Shown here: in pieces, positions 20,551 through 63,578 of the stretch
Numbering within the stretch: the first letter of the stretch is position 1
Layout: each line of letters opens with the position of its first letter
Source: Paenibacillus sp. DMB20
Lineage (GTDB): Bacteria > Bacillota > Bacilli > Paenibacillales > Paenibacillaceae
Direction of reading: 5' to 3'
Length of the DNA stretch: 64,000 nt
Assembly: GCF_000987955.1 (NCBI RefSeq)
Contig: NZ_LAZU01000008.1
Coordinates: forward strand, 1 to 64,000
Notes under the pieces: model-generated
The model's input: only the letters and a program-made list of their open reading frames with translations
Told to the model about the DNA's origin: nothing
Database searches by the model: none
Made by a program: the position numbers and the translations under genes

Positions 20551-21084
20551 TTAAGCGGTGCGTTTATTAAAGGTTGGTGCACTGCCGCCGTGGGTCGTTT
20601 TATGACCGCCTTTGCGGAACAAGCCCCGAAGGTAAGGAAGAAGGTAACGGTCGAGACCGATTTTGCCGGCGTTGGCCGCAGCGACGATGATCAATACTTC
20701 AAGCAGAAGCATTTGGGCGTTGGTGCTTACGGTACCCGAGAAGAGGAACGCGGCGTTCATGACCAGCCCCATCAGTGCGGCGAAAGTGGTGAACGTACCG
20801 AGAATGAGTCCGACGCCGACCAGGAATTCGCCAAGCGGTACAAGGATGTTGAAGATATTCACGCCCGGCAGAGCTACGTTTTCGAGGAACGCTGCCCACC
20901 AGCCTTGAACGGCGGGATGATCGCCGGTTGCCTTCCCGATGGCCCCTTGCAGGAAGCCCGCGGCGTCAAAGCCGCCCGTCAGCTTGCCCCATCCTGCCAC
21001 CATCCATTCGTATCCGATATAAACCCGGAGGAAGGTCAGGAGCCACATTGCAAATTTGTTCTCTCTCAGCCATTGGTTAAACAT
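20551..21084 (-). CDS. DoxX-family membrane protein
   Basis: A 177-residue protein with four predicted membrane helices (LTFLRVYIGYEWMVAGWGKL, NIFNILVPLGEFLVGVGLIL and two further). DoxX/MhqP-like proteins are linked to quinone or thiosulfate redox chemistry in the membrane. The ATG at 21084 follows AAGGAG eight bases upstream. Its promoter has a perfect TATAAT and two Fnr-type boxes, so oxygen-limited expression is likely. Confidence 0.85.
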   Translation of the reverse strand: MFNQWLRENKFAMWLLTFLRVYIGYEWMVAGWGKLTGGFDAAGFLQGAIGKATGDHPAVQGWWAAFLENVALPGVNIFNILVPLGEFLVGVGLILGTFTTFAALMGLVMNAAFLFSGTVSTNAQMLLLEVLIIVAAANAGKIGLDRYLLPYLRGLFRKGGHKTTHGGSAPTFNKRTA

Positions 21085-21223
21085 ATAAACCACTCCTTAA
21101 TTGAGGTAAGATTACTCGATTAGTTTGTTTCGGTTTGTTGATTTTCGATTGCTTTAAGGTTGAAAACTCCTTGCTGAATTTCTTCTTGCTGTTATGGAAG
21201 ATGATCATCTCTTTCATGTCTTT

Positions 21224-21266
21224 ATTATAAGTGAAAAAAATCACATATATTGTGATTAAAATCACA
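21224..21266 (-). promoter_or_regulatory. Anaerobic-type promoter with two Fnr-like boxes
   Basis: On the minus strand TATAAT occupies 21224-21229, placing the start near 21217. TGTGA-TTAAAA-TCACA (21251-21266) is centred at 21258.5, exactly -41.5. A second box AGTGA-AAAAAA-TCACA (21230-21245) is centred at -20.5, in the promoter spacer, 21 bp from the first. The layout fits Fnr activation from the distal box and possible repression from the proximal one. The distal box, TTGTGATTAAAATCACAA, also resembles a Rex site. Confidence 0.65.
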
Positions 21267-56706: not shown

Positions 56707-57144
56707 ATGCGATTATTAACGATCATGATGCTCTATATAACGGCTATATTAACAGGCTGCGAAAAGGAACCCGGTTGGGAGACGATGCAGCTTCTTGACG
56801 AGAAGGTCGCCGAAATTCGGATTTCGGCATTCGAGGCATGGGACGAGATGAATGAGGATACACTGCTGTCTTTCAAGGATGAGAAGGCTGTAAATGCATT
56901 TGAGGAAGCGATCCGTACTGCTCGCAAGCAGCCAGATGATGCCAAACGAACGGACCCGGATTACGACGTGATGGTCACCTATACAGAGCAATTCCCCGTT
57001 CACGCCATCAAGCTGTGGCTGGGAGAAGAGGGGCAGGAAAGTGTGTTCAGCTATGCGTTCCGGGATGGCGAGGAAGCTGTTTATGTGGCATCGGCCAAAC
57101 ACACCGATCGGATGAGAGAGCTCATTTTGCAAGAGGGGCGTTAA
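56707..57144 (+). CDS. Lipoprotein of unknown function (YhfM-like)
   Basis: 145 residues, lipobox ILTGC at about 18, then a small globular domain (PVHAIKLWLGEEGQESVFSY) like that of YhfM. 32 bp after the P-loop gene; probably the same transcript. Confidence 0.7.
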   Translation: MRLLTIMMLYITAILTGCEKEPGWETMQLLDEKVAEIRISAFEAWDEMNEDTLLSFKDEKAVNAFEEAIRTARKQPDDAKRTDPDYDVMVTYTEQFPVHAIKLWLGEEGQESVFSYAFRDGEEAVYVASAKHTDRMRELILQEGR

Positions 57145-57197
57145 AGCCGTTATCGGAACTGATCTCCTTCTGTTTTAGTACCTACAAGTTGAAACAT

Positions 57198-57389
57198 ATG
57201 GCCGAAGCTACTACGTTTTTAGCGACTTCTATAGATGACAGCTTGGAGAGTCATGATATCTCATTGAATATTCTAGCTTTGGTGGACAGACGAGTTGGCA
57301 AAAAGCGAATCTTAAATATGATCGAGAAAATGAAGTTAAAGCATCCCATTTTGCAGTATTTTTATGAACTACGGCTCAGTACGCTATGA
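57198..57389 (+). CDS. Hypothetical short protein or gene tail
   Basis: 63 residues, MAEATTFLATSIDDSLESHD, ending KHPILQYFYELRLSTL. No ribosome binding site is obvious; it may be the remaining C-terminal part of a larger gene. Confidence 0.35.
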   Translation: MAEATTFLATSIDDSLESHDISLNILALVDRRVGKKRILNMIEKMKLKHPILQYFYELRLSTL

Positions 57390-57411: not shown

Positions 57412-57440
57412 AGAATGCCCGGTGAGGGCATTCTTTTTTT
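57412..57440. terminator. Bidirectional terminator
   Basis: AGAATGCCC (57412-57420) / GGGCATTCT (57426-57434) with T-runs on both sides; it overlaps the hcp stop codon. Confidence 0.85.
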
Positions 57441-59127
57441 AGGCACCAAGGAACATGTTCATGTCATCTTCCACATTGGTAATGCCGCCGATGCCGAAGT
57501 TTTCCACGAGGACTTTGGCAACGTTAGGAGACAGGAATGCAGGGAGCGTAGGGCCCAGATGAATATTTTTAACGCCAAGATAAAGCAGGGCAAGCAGCAC
57601 GATAACCGCTTTTTGCTCATACCAGGCAATGTTATAGGAAATCGGCAAATCATTAATATCCTCAAGGCCGAATACTTCCTTCAGCTTCAATGCAATAACG
57701 ACTAGGGAGTAAGAATCATTGCATTGACCAGCGTCCAGGACCCGCGGAATACCGCCGATTTCGCCTAGATCCAGTTTATTGTATTTGTATTTGGCACAGC
57801 CTGCAGTTAGAATGACCGTGTCTTTTGGAAGTTCAGCCGCAAAATCGGTGTAATAGTTGCGGGATTTCATTCGTCCATCGCAGCCGGCCATGACGAAGAA
57901 GCGGCGGATCGCCCCGGATTTCACGGCATCGACGACTTGATCGGCCACGTTCATCACAGCGGCATGAGCGAAACCGCCGATGATCTCACCCGTTTCAAGT
58001 TCCGTGGGAGCTGGGCATCCTTTCGCTTGCTCGATCAGTGCGGAGAAGTCTTTGGGAGCACCGTCTTTTCCTTCTGGAATATGGCGGACGCCCGGAAACC
58101 CGGTGTTGCCTGTTGTATAAATACGGTCCTTATAACTGTCTTTCGGCGGAACGATACAGTTGGTCGTCATTAATATCGGTCCGTTAAAGGCTGCGAATTC
58201 GCTATTCTGCTTCCACCAGGCATTCCCGTAATTGCCTACAAAATGCTCATATTTCTTGAATGCCGGATAATAGTGGGCAGGCAGCATTTCACTGTGCGTG
58301 TACACGTCCACGCCGGTTCCTTCCGTCTGCTTCAGCAGCTCCTCCAAATCCTTCAGATCATGGCCGCTGATGAGAATGCCGGGCCGGTTTCTTACCCCGA
58401 TATTTACCTTCGTAATTTCCGGATTTCCGTAAACAGAGGTGTTCGCTTCATCAAGCATCGCCATTGCGTTTACGCCGTATTTACCGGTTTCCATCGTCAA
58501 AGCTACCAGATCCTGCACTTCAAGGCTGTCGTCAAGCGTGGCGGCAAGGGCACGACGCATAAAACGGTTTAATTCGTGATCATCCTTCTCCAGATGAAGC
58601 GCGTGATACGTATAAGCAGCCATCCCCTTCAAGCCGTAAGTAATCAATTCGCGCAGCGAGCGGATGTCTTCATTGCGGGTCGAGAGGACACCAACCGTAC
58701 GTGCTTTTTCATCAAAAGAAGCTTCGTTATCCGCTTGCCAGACGGCAGCATCAGGGAGATTGGCGGTTCCTTCCGGATATTGTTCGTTATAATAGGTGCG
58801 CACCTCGCCGCGGAGCTCTATCGCTTCCCGGATTCTTCCCACAAAAACCTCGCGGTCAAAGTTGGCGTTCGTAATCGTTGCAAACAAGGAGTCCATAATA
58901 AACAGCGATACGCGCTGTTCAAGCACCTCCGGCAGCGTTACATCCAGACTGAGAAAAGAGATGCCTTTCAGCAGATAAATCAGCAAATCCTGTAGGTTTG
59001 CCACATCATGCGGTTTCCCGCATACTCCGACAATGGTGCAGCCTGTTCCTTTGGATGCTTCCTGACATTGAAAGCAGAACATGGACGGCTGATGCTTTAA
59101 GGTCTGTTCTGTCGCGTCGTTATTCAT
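57439..59127 (-). CDS. hcp: Hydroxylamine reductase / hybrid cluster protein
   Basis: 562 residues from the ATG at 59127 (GGAGGAG upstream). N-terminal Cys motif [20 protein letters not shown] for the Fe-S cluster; further Cys ligands of the hybrid Fe-S-O cluster in [22 protein letters not shown] and [10 protein letters not shown]. Protects against nitrosative stress and is expressed without oxygen. It is divergent from the oxidoreductase operon, sharing two Fnr-type boxes. Confidence 0.94.
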
Positions 59128-59202
59128 TATTTCTCCTCCAATTTCGTGAATTTTTGTCGTAAGGTCATTATAAGATTGCCTCGCAATTGGACTGTTGAAA
59201 AC

Positions 59203-59300
59203 AGTATACTCCGCTGCTACAGCCGGGATAGTGATTGGAATCACTATTTTTTACAGCTGTGAGAGTAATCACAAGCCCGGTCCGTTTCCTCTTTTAAACT
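59203..59300. promoter_or_regulatory. Divergent hcp/oxidoreductase promoters with two Fnr-like boxes
   Basis: Leftward: TATACT on the minus strand (59203-59208) implies a start at 59196; box AGTGA-TTGGAA-TCACT (59230-59245) is centred at -41.5. Rightward: TAAACT (59295-59300) implies a start near 59307; box TGTGA-GAGTAA-TCACA (59258-59273) is centred at -41.5. Both boxes fit the TGTGA-N6-TCACW site of bacillar Fnr and the class II activation position. Confidence 0.7.
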
Positions 59301-59335
59301 GGAATTAATGACCTTAGAAGAAATGAGGAGAGAAC

Positions 59336-60358
59336 ATGTCGATTTTACCCCGAAAGAATGAACTGGGATTTTTCGAGATCCGTCTCGAATCCATCGGCGG
59401 GCTTGGCGCCAATCTGGCCGGAAAAATGCTGGCCGAAGCCGGGGTTACCGGCTCCGGACTTAACGGTTCGAATTTTTCCAGCTATGGTTCGGAGAAAAAA
59501 GGGTCGCCGGTGAAGAGTTTCGTAAGGTTCTGCGATCCCGAGGTGGAAATCCGCGATCACAGTCCCATTGAGCAGCCGCATGTCGTCGGCGTATTTCATG
59601 AAGCATTGTATAAGACGATAGATGTCATAAGCGGATTACAGCCTGATGGAACGGTGCTTGTGAATACGGCGCGAGACCTTTCCGAAGTGGCCGTTGATCT
59701 GAACATGACGCAGGGAACGCTGGCCGTAGTTGATGCGCTGAAAATTTCCGTTGAGGAAAAAACCAAAGTGAATACGGCAATGCTGGGGGCTTTGTTCCGG
59801 ATTTGCAGCTTCCTAAACCCGGACGATATGCGGCAGGTTATCCGCACAACATTTGAGAAAAAGCTGCCCCACCTCGTGGAAGCGAATTTGCGGACCTTTG
59901 ACAGAGGATATAACGAAGTCCAGTTCCTTTCCTTGGGAAATGGCTCAGAGCTTATAGACAAAATCGCTTTCGCAAGACCGCAGCCGATTCTTGGATATGA
60001 AACGCAGGAGCTGGGCGGGATTCTGAACGTTACGGCGAACAGTGTCTTGAAGGATCTTAGCGGCTCCCGGCAGGGATATTTGCCAGAGTACAAAATAGAG
60101 GACTGCATTAACTGTGCCGCCTGCGATACGGTATGTCCGGATTTCTGCATCGTGTGGGAGAAGAAACCGGATAAGCGCGGGAATATGCAGATGTTTATGA
60201 AAGGTATCGATTATCAGTATTGCAAAGGCTGCTTGAAGTGTATCGAAGCTTGTCCGACCACCGCTTTGGCTGCCATGTTAGAAGAGCCGCATTATGCGGA
60301 GCAGCACCGTGTGCCGCAATCATTTCCCTATTTAACTGCGGAGGGAGTCAGATCATGA
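59336..60358 (+). CDS. 2-oxoacid:ferredoxin oxidoreductase, fused gamma and ferredoxin subunits
   Basis: 340 residues. The gamma domain (about 15-190, IGGLGANLAGKMLAEAG) is fused to a 2x[4Fe-4S] ferredoxin domain (CINCAACDTVCPDFCI and CKGCLKCIEACPTTAL). Such enzymes oxidise pyruvate or another 2-oxoacid with CoA and reduce ferredoxin. Overlaps the next gene by four bases. Confidence 0.92.
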   Translation: MSILPRKNELGFFEIRLESIGGLGANLAGKMLAEAGVTGSGLNGSNFSSYGSEKKGSPVKSFVRFCDPEVEIRDHSPIEQPHVVGVFHEALYKTIDVISGLQPDGTVLVNTARDLSEVAVDLNMTQGTLAVVDALKISVEEKTKVNTAMLGALFRICSFLNPDDMRQVIRTTFEKKLPHLVEANLRTFDRGYNEVQFLSLGNGSELIDKIAFARPQPILGYETQELGGILNVTANSVLKDLSGSRQGYLPEYKIEDCINCAACDTVCPDFCIVWEKKPDKRGNMQMFMKGIDYQYCKGCLKCIEACPTTALAAMLEEPHYAEQHRVPQSFPYLTAEGVRS

Positions 60359-62652
60359 ATATGCAAATTCAAGAAACAACGGAGAACAAGCTGGCGGCCG
60401 CTCAAACGGCAGTCTTCGAATCGGGCAACGAAATGGCTGCCATGGCGGCTGCCCAGATTAACTATCACATTATGGGTTATTTTCCGATTACGCCATCTAC
60501 GGAAATCGCCCAATATCTTGACATGATGCGTACACGCGGCGAACATGACATCAAGCTGATTCCAGCTGACGGCGAACATGGATCGGCGGGGATTTGCTAC
60601 GGTGCGGCCGCAGCCGGAGCACGGGTATTCAATGCTACCAGCGCGAATGGTTTCCTGTATATGATCGAACAGCTTCCTGTGCAGGCGGGCACACGTTTCC
60701 CGATGGTCATGAATTTGGTGACGCGTGCAGTCAGCGGACCGCTGGATATTCGTGGTGATCATTCGGATCTTTACTACGGTCTGAATACCGGCTGGGTGAT
60801 TTTGACCGCCCGTTCACCGCAGGCCGTTTATGACATGAATATCATGGCGCTGCGTATCGCGGAACATGAAGACGTACGCCTGCCGGTCATTGTAGCTTAT
60901 GACGGATTTTTCACATCGCACCAGAAACGCCGGGTACAAATATTTACGAACCGGGAAACCGTTCAGGAGTTTGTAGGGGAAAAGGCGCCTGAATATCCGC
61001 ATGTGCTGGACGAGAACAACCCAATCGTTGTTGGGGCTTATATGAACGGCGACGATTTGATGAACAACCACTACCAACAGTCAAGCGCCATGTACCGTGC
61101 GGGCGAGGTGTTCAAGGAAGTGGCAGAGGAATACGCGGCTTTGTCCGGAAGATCCTATTCGCCGCTTGATCTGTATCGCATGGAAGACGCAGAGGTGGCT
61201 TTATTCCTGCTCAATTCGGCGGCCGAATCCTCCAAAGACGTCGTGGATCGGCTGAGGGCGAGAGGAATTAAAGCGGGCGTAATCAGCCCGAATATTCTCC
61301 GGCCGTTCCCGGCAAAGGAAATCCGCGAGGCGCTTATAGGTGTCAAAGCACTACTGGTTGGCGAACGCGCTGATTCTTACGGTGCACACGGAGCCAATCT
61401 GACCCATGAGGTCAAAGCGGCCCTGCAGGAAATCCGTGGTCCGCAGCCAATTGTGCTGTCACGCATATTTGGACTTGGCGGGAAAGACTATTACGCGGAT
61501 GACGCGGAAACTTTTTTTGCCTTGACGATCGAGGCAATGGAGCTCGGTTATGCCAAAGTGCCGTTTGATTATTACGGCCAAACACCGGGAGATGAGGAGC
61601 AAAGACTGCAGCCGATCATTGCCCCGATGAATGGAGACAGCTTTAAATCTGGCCTGATCACCGTAAAGGTGGATGAAGAGACAAGTAAACTATCCGTTAA
61701 AGTGCCGCCGATGCGGGCGCTAGCCGCGAAACCGAAACGGTTTGCTTCCGGCCACGGAGCTTGCCCGGGCTGCGGTATTTTCCCGGCGCTGGAGCTCTTT
61801 TTCAAAGGGATTGAAGGCAATGTCGTTACTTTATTCCATACCGGCTGCGCTTATATCACAACAACGGGTTATCCGTATAACTCGCATAAGCAGAGCTTCA
61901 TTCATAATTTGTTCCAGAACGGACCGGCTACTTTATCCGGCACGGTAGAAGCGTTCCTCGAGAAGAAACGCCGCGGAGAAATCGAAGTTCCAGAGGATTT
62001 CACTTTTGTCATGGTGACCGGCGACGGCGGCATGGACATCGGGATGGGTTCGGCCATCGGGACGGCGCTGCGGGGCCATAATCTGATCATTCTGGAATAT
62101 GATAATGAAGGCTATATGAACACCGGTGCACAGCTTTCGTATTCCACACCATTAGGACATATGACCAGTACGTCCGGTGTCGGCAAACAGCAGCAGGGCA
62201 AAGCGTTCCATCATAAAGATACGGTGCAAATGATGGCGGCGGCGCATATTCCGTACGTATTCACGGGGACGGAAGCATTTCCGCAGGATCTTGTGAAAAA
62301 GGCGGCGAAAGCGCAGTGGTACGCCCAGAATGTAGGTACCGTTTACGGCAAGCTGCTGATCACATGCCCGCTGAACTGGAAATCGAGCGACAAGGATGGG
62401 GAGAACATCGTCCGCGCGGCCGTGAATTCAAACTTCTTCCCACTGTATGAAGTAGAGCAGGGAGAAACGAATATTACGTACGATCCTGAAGCGAAGAAAA
62501 AACAGGTACCGCTCAGCGACTGGCTGAAATACATGGGCAAATCAAGACATCTGCTCAAGGAAGAAAACAAAGAAATGCTTGGCGAATTTGAAAAAGAAGT
62601 GGAGCGGCGCTGGTCGATTCTGAAAACGAAACACGAGAACCCACTGCTATAA
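60355..62652 (+). CDS. 2-oxoacid:ferredoxin oxidoreductase, fused alpha and beta subunits
   Basis: 765 residues from the ATG at 60355 (GGAGGGAG upstream). Alpha part (about 25-430; GYFPITPSTEIAQYLD, ADGEHGSAGICYGAAAAGAR) and beta part (about 465-740; GHGACPGCGIFPAL, TGDGGMDIGMGSAIGTALR with the TPP motif GDG). The whole enzyme is thus two polypeptides, gamma-delta and alpha-beta. Which 2-oxoacid it uses cannot be told. Oxygen-sensitive, consistent with the Fnr-type control. Confidence 0.92.
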   Translation: MNMQIQETTENKLAAAQTAVFESGNEMAAMAAAQINYHIMGYFPITPSTEIAQYLDMMRTRGEHDIKLIPADGEHGSAGICYGAAAAGARVFNATSANGFLYMIEQLPVQAGTRFPMVMNLVTRAVSGPLDIRGDHSDLYYGLNTGWVILTARSPQAVYDMNIMALRIAEHEDVRLPVIVAYDGFFTSHQKRRVQIFTNRETVQEFVGEKAPEYPHVLDENNPIVVGAYMNGDDLMNNHYQQSSAMYRAGEVFKEVAEEYAALSGRSYSPLDLYRMEDAEVALFLLNSAAESSKDVVDRLRARGIKAGVISPNILRPFPAKEIREALIGVKALLVGERADSYGAHGANLTHEVKAALQEIRGPQPIVLSRIFGLGGKDYYADDAETFFALTIEAMELGYAKVPFDYYGQTPGDEEQRLQPIIAPMNGDSFKSGLITVKVDEETSKLSVKVPPMRALAAKPKRFASGHGACPGCGIFPALELFFKGIEGNVVTLFHTGCAYITTTGYPYNSHKQSFIHNLFQNGPATLSGTVEAFLEKKRRGEIEVPEDFTFVMVTGDGGMDIGMGSAIGTALRGHNLIILEYDNEGYMNTGAQLSYSTPLGHMTSTSGVGKQQQGKAFHHKDTVQMMAAAHIPYVFTGTEAFPQDLVKKAAKAQWYAQNVGTVYGKLLITCPLNWKSSDKDGENIVRAAVNSNFFPLYEVEQGETNITYDPEAKKKQVPLSDWLKYMGKSRHLLKEENKEMLGEFEKEVERRWSILKTKHENPLL

Positions 62653-62720: not shown

Positions 62721-63578
62721 GACGGATTGTCAAGCTAAGTGCGACAGTTCCTCCATGAAGGCTTCGTGAGCGGACTTCCACCCGAGACATTTGCGGGGGC
62801 GGTTGTTCATTAAGCGGATGGCCTCAGCGAGTTGTTCGTCGGTTACGGAGGCAAAGTCATGCCCCTTTGGGAAGAACTCCCGGAGCAGGCCGTTTGCGTT
62901 CTCGTTCGACCCCCGTTGCCACGAGGAATACGGGTCTGCAAAGTAGACCTGCACGTCATGAACGGCCTCCAAGGCAGTATAACAAGCAAATTCTTTGCCT
63001 CTGTCGGTAGTTGCTGTCAGAAATGCCTCCTGTGGATACTGGCTAGCCATAACTCCGACGGCCACCTCCATGGAGTGAGCGGTGCCGCAGAACTTGAACC
63101 TTTCCGCTAGCCACGCGGCCTTGGTAGAGCCAGCGATAGATCGTTTTGAAGCACACGGAAGTCTTGCCCTCCGCTCGGCGTCTCTGTGTAATCTGCTCGG
63201 GCGACCACGTCTCCTGCAGCTTAAGATCAATCTCTTCGGCCAGAGAGTCCGTATACTTTCCGGCAGGCACGCTCCGCATTCTCCGCTCCTGATGTGTCTA
63301 CTGGGCCGTGCAGGCGGTATAAGCTTCGCCTGGCTTTCGGCCACGACTCAGTTCCCGTGCAATGGTAGAAGGATGACGGCCCAACTCACGACCGATCCTC
63401 CTGCAGGACCAGCCTAGTCGATGCAAGGTCTCTAGTTGCCCGCGTTCAATTATGCTAAGATGGGAGTAGCTCATGTTGGGTTCTCCTGTGTGAATGGTTG
63501 TGTGGTAACTCCCATTTTACACGAAACCCTCATGGGCCTTTGTTTTTTTAGGTGTCGCACTTCATATTACAATCCGTC
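62721..63578 (-). mobile_element. IS30-family element, internally deleted
   Basis: Ends are inverted repeats of about 26 bp: GACGGATTGT-N6-AAGTGCGACA at 62721-62746 and its reverse complement at 63553-63578. GTTT flanks both ends (62717-62720 and 63579-63582), a possible target duplication. Length 858 bp against about 1.05 kb for intact members. Confidence 0.8.
62730..63474 (-). pseudogene. IS30-family transposase, defective
   Basis: Starts MSYSHLSIIERGQLETLHRL at 63474 with the IS30 helix-turn-helix, meets an in-frame TAG (after AYTACTAQ), resumes to KTIYRWLYQGRVASGKVQVL, then jumps frame into HSMEVAVGVMASQYPQEAFL and ends FMEELSHLA. About 60 residues, including the first catalytic Asp, are missing between VLRH and HSMEV. 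The part with TTDRGKEFACY and WQRGSNENANG is kept. Confidence 0.85.

Follow-up and report, generated by a model that had tools for sequence, protein, structure and literature searches.

The stretch of DNA analysed here (the window, 64,000 nucleotides of the Paenibacillus sp. DMB20 genome) contains a gene for a hybrid cluster protein (hcp) and a two-gene 2-oxoacid:ferredoxin oxidoreductase (OFOR) operon, which are divergent and separated by an intergenic region of 208 bp. The locus raises the question of whether one oxygen-responsive regulator serves both promoters and whether the two genes form a coupled unit. From sequence comparison, we consider it highly probable that the 208-bp region contains two promoters of class II type which belong to an Fnr regulon like that of Bacillus and would be induced without oxygen. 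As sequence, the divergent pair of Fnr-type promoters is real, conserved and ordinary in kind, and a comparison of two apparent wirings of hcp (see below) seems worth testing.

The hcp-OFOR promoter region

The features of the locus are as follows:
57439..59127, minus strand: hcp, hybrid cluster protein / hydroxylamine reductase, 562 aa (NF003658, 866.7 bits, cut-off 367; PF03063)
59196, minus strand: predicted hcp transcription start, derived from the -10
59203..59208, minus strand: hcp -10 hexamer TATACT, 21 bp from the near edge of its own box
59230..59245, no strand: Fnr-type box of the hcp promoter, AGTGATTGGAATCACT, centre 59237.5, at -41.5 to the predicted start 59196
59258..59273, no strand: Fnr-type box of the OFOR promoter, TGTGAGAGTAATCACA, centre 59265.5, at -41.5 to the predicted start 59307
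59295..59300, plus strand: OFOR -10 hexamer TAAACT, 21 bp from the near edge of its own box
59307, plus strand: predicted OFOR transcription start, derived from the -10
59336..60358, plus strand: OFOR gamma-delta fusion subunit, 340 aa (TIGR02175, 114.2 bits, cut-off 81.1; POR and Fer4 domains)
60355..62652, plus strand: OFOR alpha-beta fusion subunit, reading frame (POR_N, PFOR_II, TPP_enzyme_C)

The start codons of hcp and the OFOR gamma-delta gene are the ATGs at 59127 (minus strand) and 59336, respectively. For the alpha-beta gene the start codon was our choice, and the product is 765 aa if the ATG overlapping the preceding stop is used. The window comes from a Paenibacillus near P. solani and P. 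lautus, whose OFOR gamma-delta proteins are 98% and 97% identical, respectively. About 80 bp past the end of the OFOR operon, a transposase-like open frame begins on the minus strand (62730-63344), which we take to be IS30-like as judged by eye.

The initial annotation had described two TGTGA-N6-TCACW-like boxes 28 bp apart between the divergent genes, each at -41.5 from its own -10-derived start. Direct reading confirmed the coordinates and the spacing, with centres 28 bp and edges 12 bp apart, and the placement also held, as both boxes are 21 bp from their -10 and the starts were derived on the assumption of the usual 6-nt spacing between -10 and start. Both boxes are palindromic, and each paired -10 points away from the other. 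Compared with TGTGA-N6-TCACA, all ten letters are present in the box at 59258, whereas the box at 59230 has A and T at its ends and so departs from the motif at both outermost letters. The OFOR -10 departs from TATAAT at two positions, which fits dependence on an activator.

In the mechanism that we propose, an Fnr dimer with a [4Fe-4S] cluster would bind each TGTGA-N6-TCACA-like box at -41.5 in the absence of oxygen, and the bound Fnr would recruit RNA polymerase to the adjacent -10, leftward into hcp and rightward into the two-gene OFOR. We infer Fnr as the binding protein, starts at 59196 and 59307, and induction of both genes on oxygen loss; hcp and OFOR are predicted to be induced jointly when oxygen falls.

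Genome-wide spacing of the motif and its candidate regulator

Within the window, TGTGA-N6-TCACA at two mismatches was not enriched (23 matches versus 20 expected) and TTGAY-N4-ATCAA at one mismatch was near chance (17 seen versus 11 expected). Since such loose matching was close to chance level, strict genome-wide counts were used instead. The strict motif WGTGA-N6-TCACW was found at 35 sites in the 6.65-Mb genome, compared with 8 for a reversed-pattern control. The flanks of all 35 sites were then searched for TANNNT at distances of 0-49 on both sides (70 orientations). A gap of 21 occurred in 15 of the 70 orientations, while the other 49 gaps averaged 1.73 each; the corresponding values were 13/66 against 1.67 without the two hcp/OFOR boxes and 11/62 against 1.47 without all four window sites. 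The next highest count was at gap 11 (8/70), for which we give no explanation. The WGTGA-N6-TCACW motif thus tends to occur at class II spacing across this genome. A genome scan for the motif at -41.5 had been proposed by the initial annotation, which regarded exact class II spacing at both promoters as unlikely by chance; the excess of the motif over its control and the genome-wide enrichment of the 21-bp gap to a -10 both bear out this view.

Sites with a gap of 21 precede genes for pyruvate formate-lyase (formate C-acetyltransferase), the start of NirB and flavocytochrome c, and sites with a gap of 22 precede the flavohemoprotein gene and the gene of the bifunctional AdhE, next to which fnr itself lies in divergent orientation. 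Cytochrome bd subunit I lies behind a site with another or no clear gap. Further genes behind sites encode a TorD/NarJ-type chaperone and an enzyme of the NADH oxidase/CoA-disulfide reductase type, both of which scored below the NCBIfam cut-offs and take their names from Pfam or weaker matches. For some of the 35 sites, the gene that contains or follows the site has no evident anaerobic role when inspected by eye (e.g. L022, L024, L027, L028, L041 and L042). These exceptions apart, the set looks like an anaerobic regulon, and it would provide candidate Fnr targets in a Paenibacillus that can be checked. The flavohemoprotein gene (L037:13181-14484) and nirB (L036:19191-19793) appear split or frame-shifted in the assembly, either genuinely or through assembly error.

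Two more boxes (21230-21245 and 21251-21266) were found in the window at a DoxX-family gene (20551-21093, minus strand). A perfect TATAAT on the minus strand (21229-21224) lies 21 bp from the latter, and the former sits between it and this -10, where a bound protein might block. The DoxX gene promoter is possibly an on/off Fnr promoter.

The boxes might instead be Rex operators, through which hcp and OFOR would be repressed in an NADH-responsive manner. A Rex-type protein is encoded in the genome (PF06971, 79.1 bits) and Rex-like operators are enriched, with 41 genome sites at up to two mismatches versus 12 in the control; five of the 35 strict motif sites, including the adhE/fnr site, are within one mismatch of a Rex operator. 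However, the hcp and OFOR boxes are not among the 41 sites and have 4 and 3 mismatches, respectively, to TTGTGAA-N4-TTCACAA, and the letters conserved on the hcp side are GTGAT..ATCAC rather than the Rex-like GTGAA..TTCAC. The fixed -41.5 placement, which is an activator position, also speaks against repression by Rex, and we regard this reading as extremely improbable.

The genome encodes an Fnr (L002, C55:272847-273563) with cysteines at positions 227, 229, 232 and 237, Asp143 in the dimer helix and the recognition helix TRESVNRM. A paralogue with 47% identity to the first (G000:C21:137436-138101) has cysteines at 245, 247, 253 and 258 and the same helix. The best NCBIfam matches of the Fnr, both of them below cut-off, were the E. 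coli-type Fnr model (59.1 bits, cut-off 228) and the CRP model (77.5 bits, cut-off 266). In B. subtilis Fnr, the cluster ligands are C227, C230, C235 and D141, and the Bacillus Fnr operator is of the TGTGA-N6-TCACA type. In B. cereus, Fnr has been described as carrying a [4Fe-4S] cluster and, at its C-terminal end, four cysteines (PMC5047918), and R180-E181 of the recognition helix have been associated with G3 and A6, i.e. TGTGA, and Pro181 with GTAAC (Rodionov et al. 2005, PMC1274295). For the window's Fnr, cofactor chemistry and oxygen signal are presumed by analogy with Bacillus Fnr.

The C-terminal cysteine cluster, the R-E helix, the operator type, the class II position and target genes of anaerobic respiration and fermentation are shared with the Bacillus Fnr regulon. 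Unlike that regulon, the window genome has hcp and OFOR as a divergent pair of predicted targets, and it has two Fnr paralogues. No report of Fnr control of hcp or OFOR in Paenibacillus was found in open-licence full texts.

Conservation of the promoter pair and of each half

From 18 hcp-OFOR loci we obtained 15 distinct intergenic sequences of 178-264 bp, counting three identical ones once and omitting two loci (L058 and L134) whose OFOR gene is cut off by the beginning of the contig. All 15 sequences have both boxes, each 21 bp from its own -10, where the 21-bp gap was itself required by the selection and one core mismatch was allowed; the OFOR box had one core mismatch in two of them. The eight core positions carried 2.00 bits for the hcp box and 1.91 bits for the OFOR box, compared with 1.02 and 1.44 bits for the respective 21-bp spacers (n = 15). 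The hcp -10 was invariant at all six positions (2.00 bits), and the OFOR -10 (1.88 bits) was TAAACT in 13 sequences, TAAAAT in one and TACACT in one. Boxes and -10s were also conserved in an alignment of 14 loci. The offset between the two boxes was 27 bp in nine sequences, 28 bp in four, 23 bp in one and 30 bp in one; given this variation beside the constant 21 bp to the -10, each box seems to be tied to its own promoter.

This bears on the possibility that both boxes form one cooperative bidirectional switch, in which each would also influence the other promoter from a position near -69.5. In favour of such a switch, the two palindromes are near each other and none of the 15 distinct sequences has lost either of them. 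On the other hand, offsets of 23-30 bp put the far box on different helix faces while the distance to its own -10 stays constant, and each kind of box occurs without the other gene. We consider a cooperative switch unlikely.

With regard to hcp alone, the genome G005 (L163) has no OFOR match and its hcp keeps AGTGACTTTTATCACT, the 21-bp gap and TATACT. Seven further loci (L193, L197 and L199-L203) have hcp with an Fnr-type box and no OFOR match in the fetched locus, giving eight loci in total. Conversely, an exact-core OFOR box 21 bp from TATAAT, with no hcp match in the fetched locus, was found in nine other Bacillales loci (L104, L110, L119, L121-L124, L127 and L128), which include Evansella, Anaerobacillus, Litchfieldia and Texcoconibacillus. 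For the OFOR upstream set, 105 of 110 loci were kept after identical upstreams or those of less than 120 bases were dropped; an exact-core box was present in 38 and absent from 67 of these. The gap to a near-TATAAT -10 was 21 in nine of the 105 upstreams, and no other gap occurred more than twice.

In sum, the anaerobic genes behind the sites, the 21-bp enrichment, the conservation and an Fnr with C-terminal cysteines and an R-E helix argue for the class II Fnr promoters that had been proposed for both genes. The accompanying notion of one coupled unit has to be qualified, since the halves occur alone and the box-to-box distance varies among relatives. The hcp and OFOR promoters seem to be of Fnr type independently of each other and to have come to lie in the same intergenic region in one clade.

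Two other arrangements were seen upstream of OFOR relatives. In the OFOR loci of other Paenibacillus (L135-L149, 65-69% identical), GTGAA-N4-TTCAC, a Rex-like sequence, was found upstream in 14 of 15 loci, and 10 of these 14 sites were 17-44 bp from the start codon, a repressor-like place. OFOR may be controlled differently in these loci from the window clade. A second group (L150-L155, 59-61% identical) has, in all six loci, a pair of imperfect TGTGA boxes spaced by 21 bp and located approximately 170-215 bp before the gene, with the same offset as that of the DoxX pair in the window.

Two predicted wirings of hcp

We then compared 52 distinct hcp upstream sequences of 250 bp from Paenibacillales (L159-L210), taken from loci that were the best 30 hits per search and excluding a shorter Hcp-like group of 44-48% identity that is common in the order. 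In 17 of the 52, a box of the Fnr type with an exact core was found 21 bp from TATACT or TATGCT, and GTAAC-N4-GTTAC with a -10 at 21 bp in 30, where related genomes are not independent observations in these counts. In no case did both box types precede the same hcp. Neither exact box was found in the remaining five (L194, L195, L196, L198 and L207), among which L195, L196 and L198 have a one-mismatch box and TACAAT at a gap of 20.

A protein with the helix ARPSLSRE was encoded in all 30 GTAAC-class loci and in none of the 17 Fnr-type loci; in L165-L188 its gene was divergent from hcp in 24 of 24 cases. This combination of an hcpR-like gene and a GTAAC box matches the published description of HcpR2. 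Among 61 Paenibacillus genomes, 33 have the GTAAC-class type of hcp (71-75% identity to that of the window), and exactly those 33 have an HcpR of at least 62% identity. Six genomes have the window's type of hcp, with CRP-family matches of only 22-30% where identities were listed, and the other 22 have an Hcp-like protein of 47-48% identity (9), a fragment (1) or no match (12). A window-type Fnr match of at least 66% identity was present in 53 of 54 genomes checked, covering both hcp types, and the remaining genome had one of 49%, which indicates that Fnr is not the deciding factor for the wiring of hcp. Second-Fnr matches of 40-48% were found in six other genomes of the Fnr type (G004, G046, G153, G228, G235 and G239); in genomes of the HcpR type, no second Fnr match was above 31% among the matches listed.

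The two wirings of hcp follow two Hcp lineages. In a midpoint-rooted Hcp tree of 50 rows, from which L169 (internal stop) and L208 (duplicate) had been dropped, the HcpR-linked rows were on one side of a branch with support of 100/99 and the Fnr-type rows on the other, along with four of the five unclassified rows. A recent rewiring from HcpR to Fnr in the window clade was also considered; it is weakened by this split, as both controls look old and the direction is not readable from the tree.

No close relative of the Paenibacillus HcpR was found in the window genome, where the best match had an E-value of 5e-11 and 22% identity and the next 30%, and an hcpR beside hcp and a GTAAC-N4-GTTAC box were absent from the window and its clade. 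In a scan of the window's own genome, GGTAAC-N4-GTTACC at two mismatches showed no excess (219 sites versus 298 in the control). The missing HcpR relative bears on whether another CRP/FNR protein binds the boxes, such as L004 or an HcpR of the Desulfovibrio type, in which case the signal would be NO or another one and not oxygen. L004, another CRP-family protein of the genome, has the R-E recognition pair without the C-terminal cysteine cluster, the genome has two more CRP-family frames (L005 and L006) beyond those compared here, and the motif of Desulfovibrio HcpR is reported to be the CRP-like wTGTGAnnnnnnTCACAw (Rodionov et al. 2005, PMC1274295). Against this, a close HcpR relative of the kind present in 33 of the 61 genomes is missing, the motif precedes several anaerobic genes, and where relatives encode an HcpR next to hcp, its helix is of the R-P kind and the box is GTAAC instead. 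Control by such a protein is quite improbable, and Fnr is the regulator that we favour.

In the HcpR2 regulon, hcp is likewise under a CRP/FNR-type box, and the regulator gene is often beside hcp (Rodionov et al. 2005, PMC1274295). The HcpR2-type box in related Paenibacillus is also 21 bp from the -10, as in the window, but in the window clade a close hcpR is missing and hcp is not preceded by a GTAAC box. The crp2-hcp locus of Thermoanaerobacter tengcongensis offers a precedent as far as hcp is concerned: hcp has a CRP-like site there and was predicted to be under an orthologue of B. subtilis fnr (PMC1274295). Unlike in the window, the regulator gene precedes hcp there, and no OFOR partner is mentioned in the description of that locus (PMC1274295).

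For the OFOR half, pfoAB of Paenibacillus sp. WLY78 is a two-gene pyruvate:ferredoxin oxidoreductase with gamma and alpha subunits (PMC4761190), and so resembles the window OFOR in its make-up. A listed fragment of 3306 bp would fit the 3317 bp of the window operon, although this assignment is a guess, with ten sizes given for nine names, and Fnr is mentioned nowhere in the text (PMC4761190). In recombinant E. coli, nitrogenase was more active with pfoAB (PMC4761190), so that such an enzyme can feed a low-potential acceptor. In clostridia and deltaproteobacteria, the ferredoxin-like gene frdX accompanies hcp (PMC12915319; PMC1274295). We tentatively suggest, as a doubtful reading, that hcp is under Fnr in this clade where related Paenibacillus have it under an HcpR-type regulator at the same promoter geometry, and that ferredoxin reduced by OFOR feeds Hcp, hence the pairing; the feeding of Hcp is put forward purely as a hypothesis. 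If it is true, the divergent pair would be a module leading from 2-oxoacid via ferredoxin and Hcp to NO reduction, armed when oxygen falls and not induced by NO, and an electron donor would be named where no reductase gene is seen beside hcp.

HcpR of Porphyromonas gingivalis is reported to sense NO (PMC12750200), and the HcpR of Paenibacillus is presumed to do likewise. The same NO-defence gene would be wired to two regulators of the CRP/FNR family in two lineages with equal promoter geometry, and this comparison opens the question of which advantage lies in having Hcp ready when oxygen is lost compared with arming it on NO.

In G005, a gene ending ...NILALVDRRVGKKRILNM... is divergent from hcp at the place of OFOR in the window clade. 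A short piece downstream of hcp in the window (57015-57389) has an ending similar to that of the NILALVDRRVGKKRILNM gene when compared by eye, and these endings hint at a local rearrangement.
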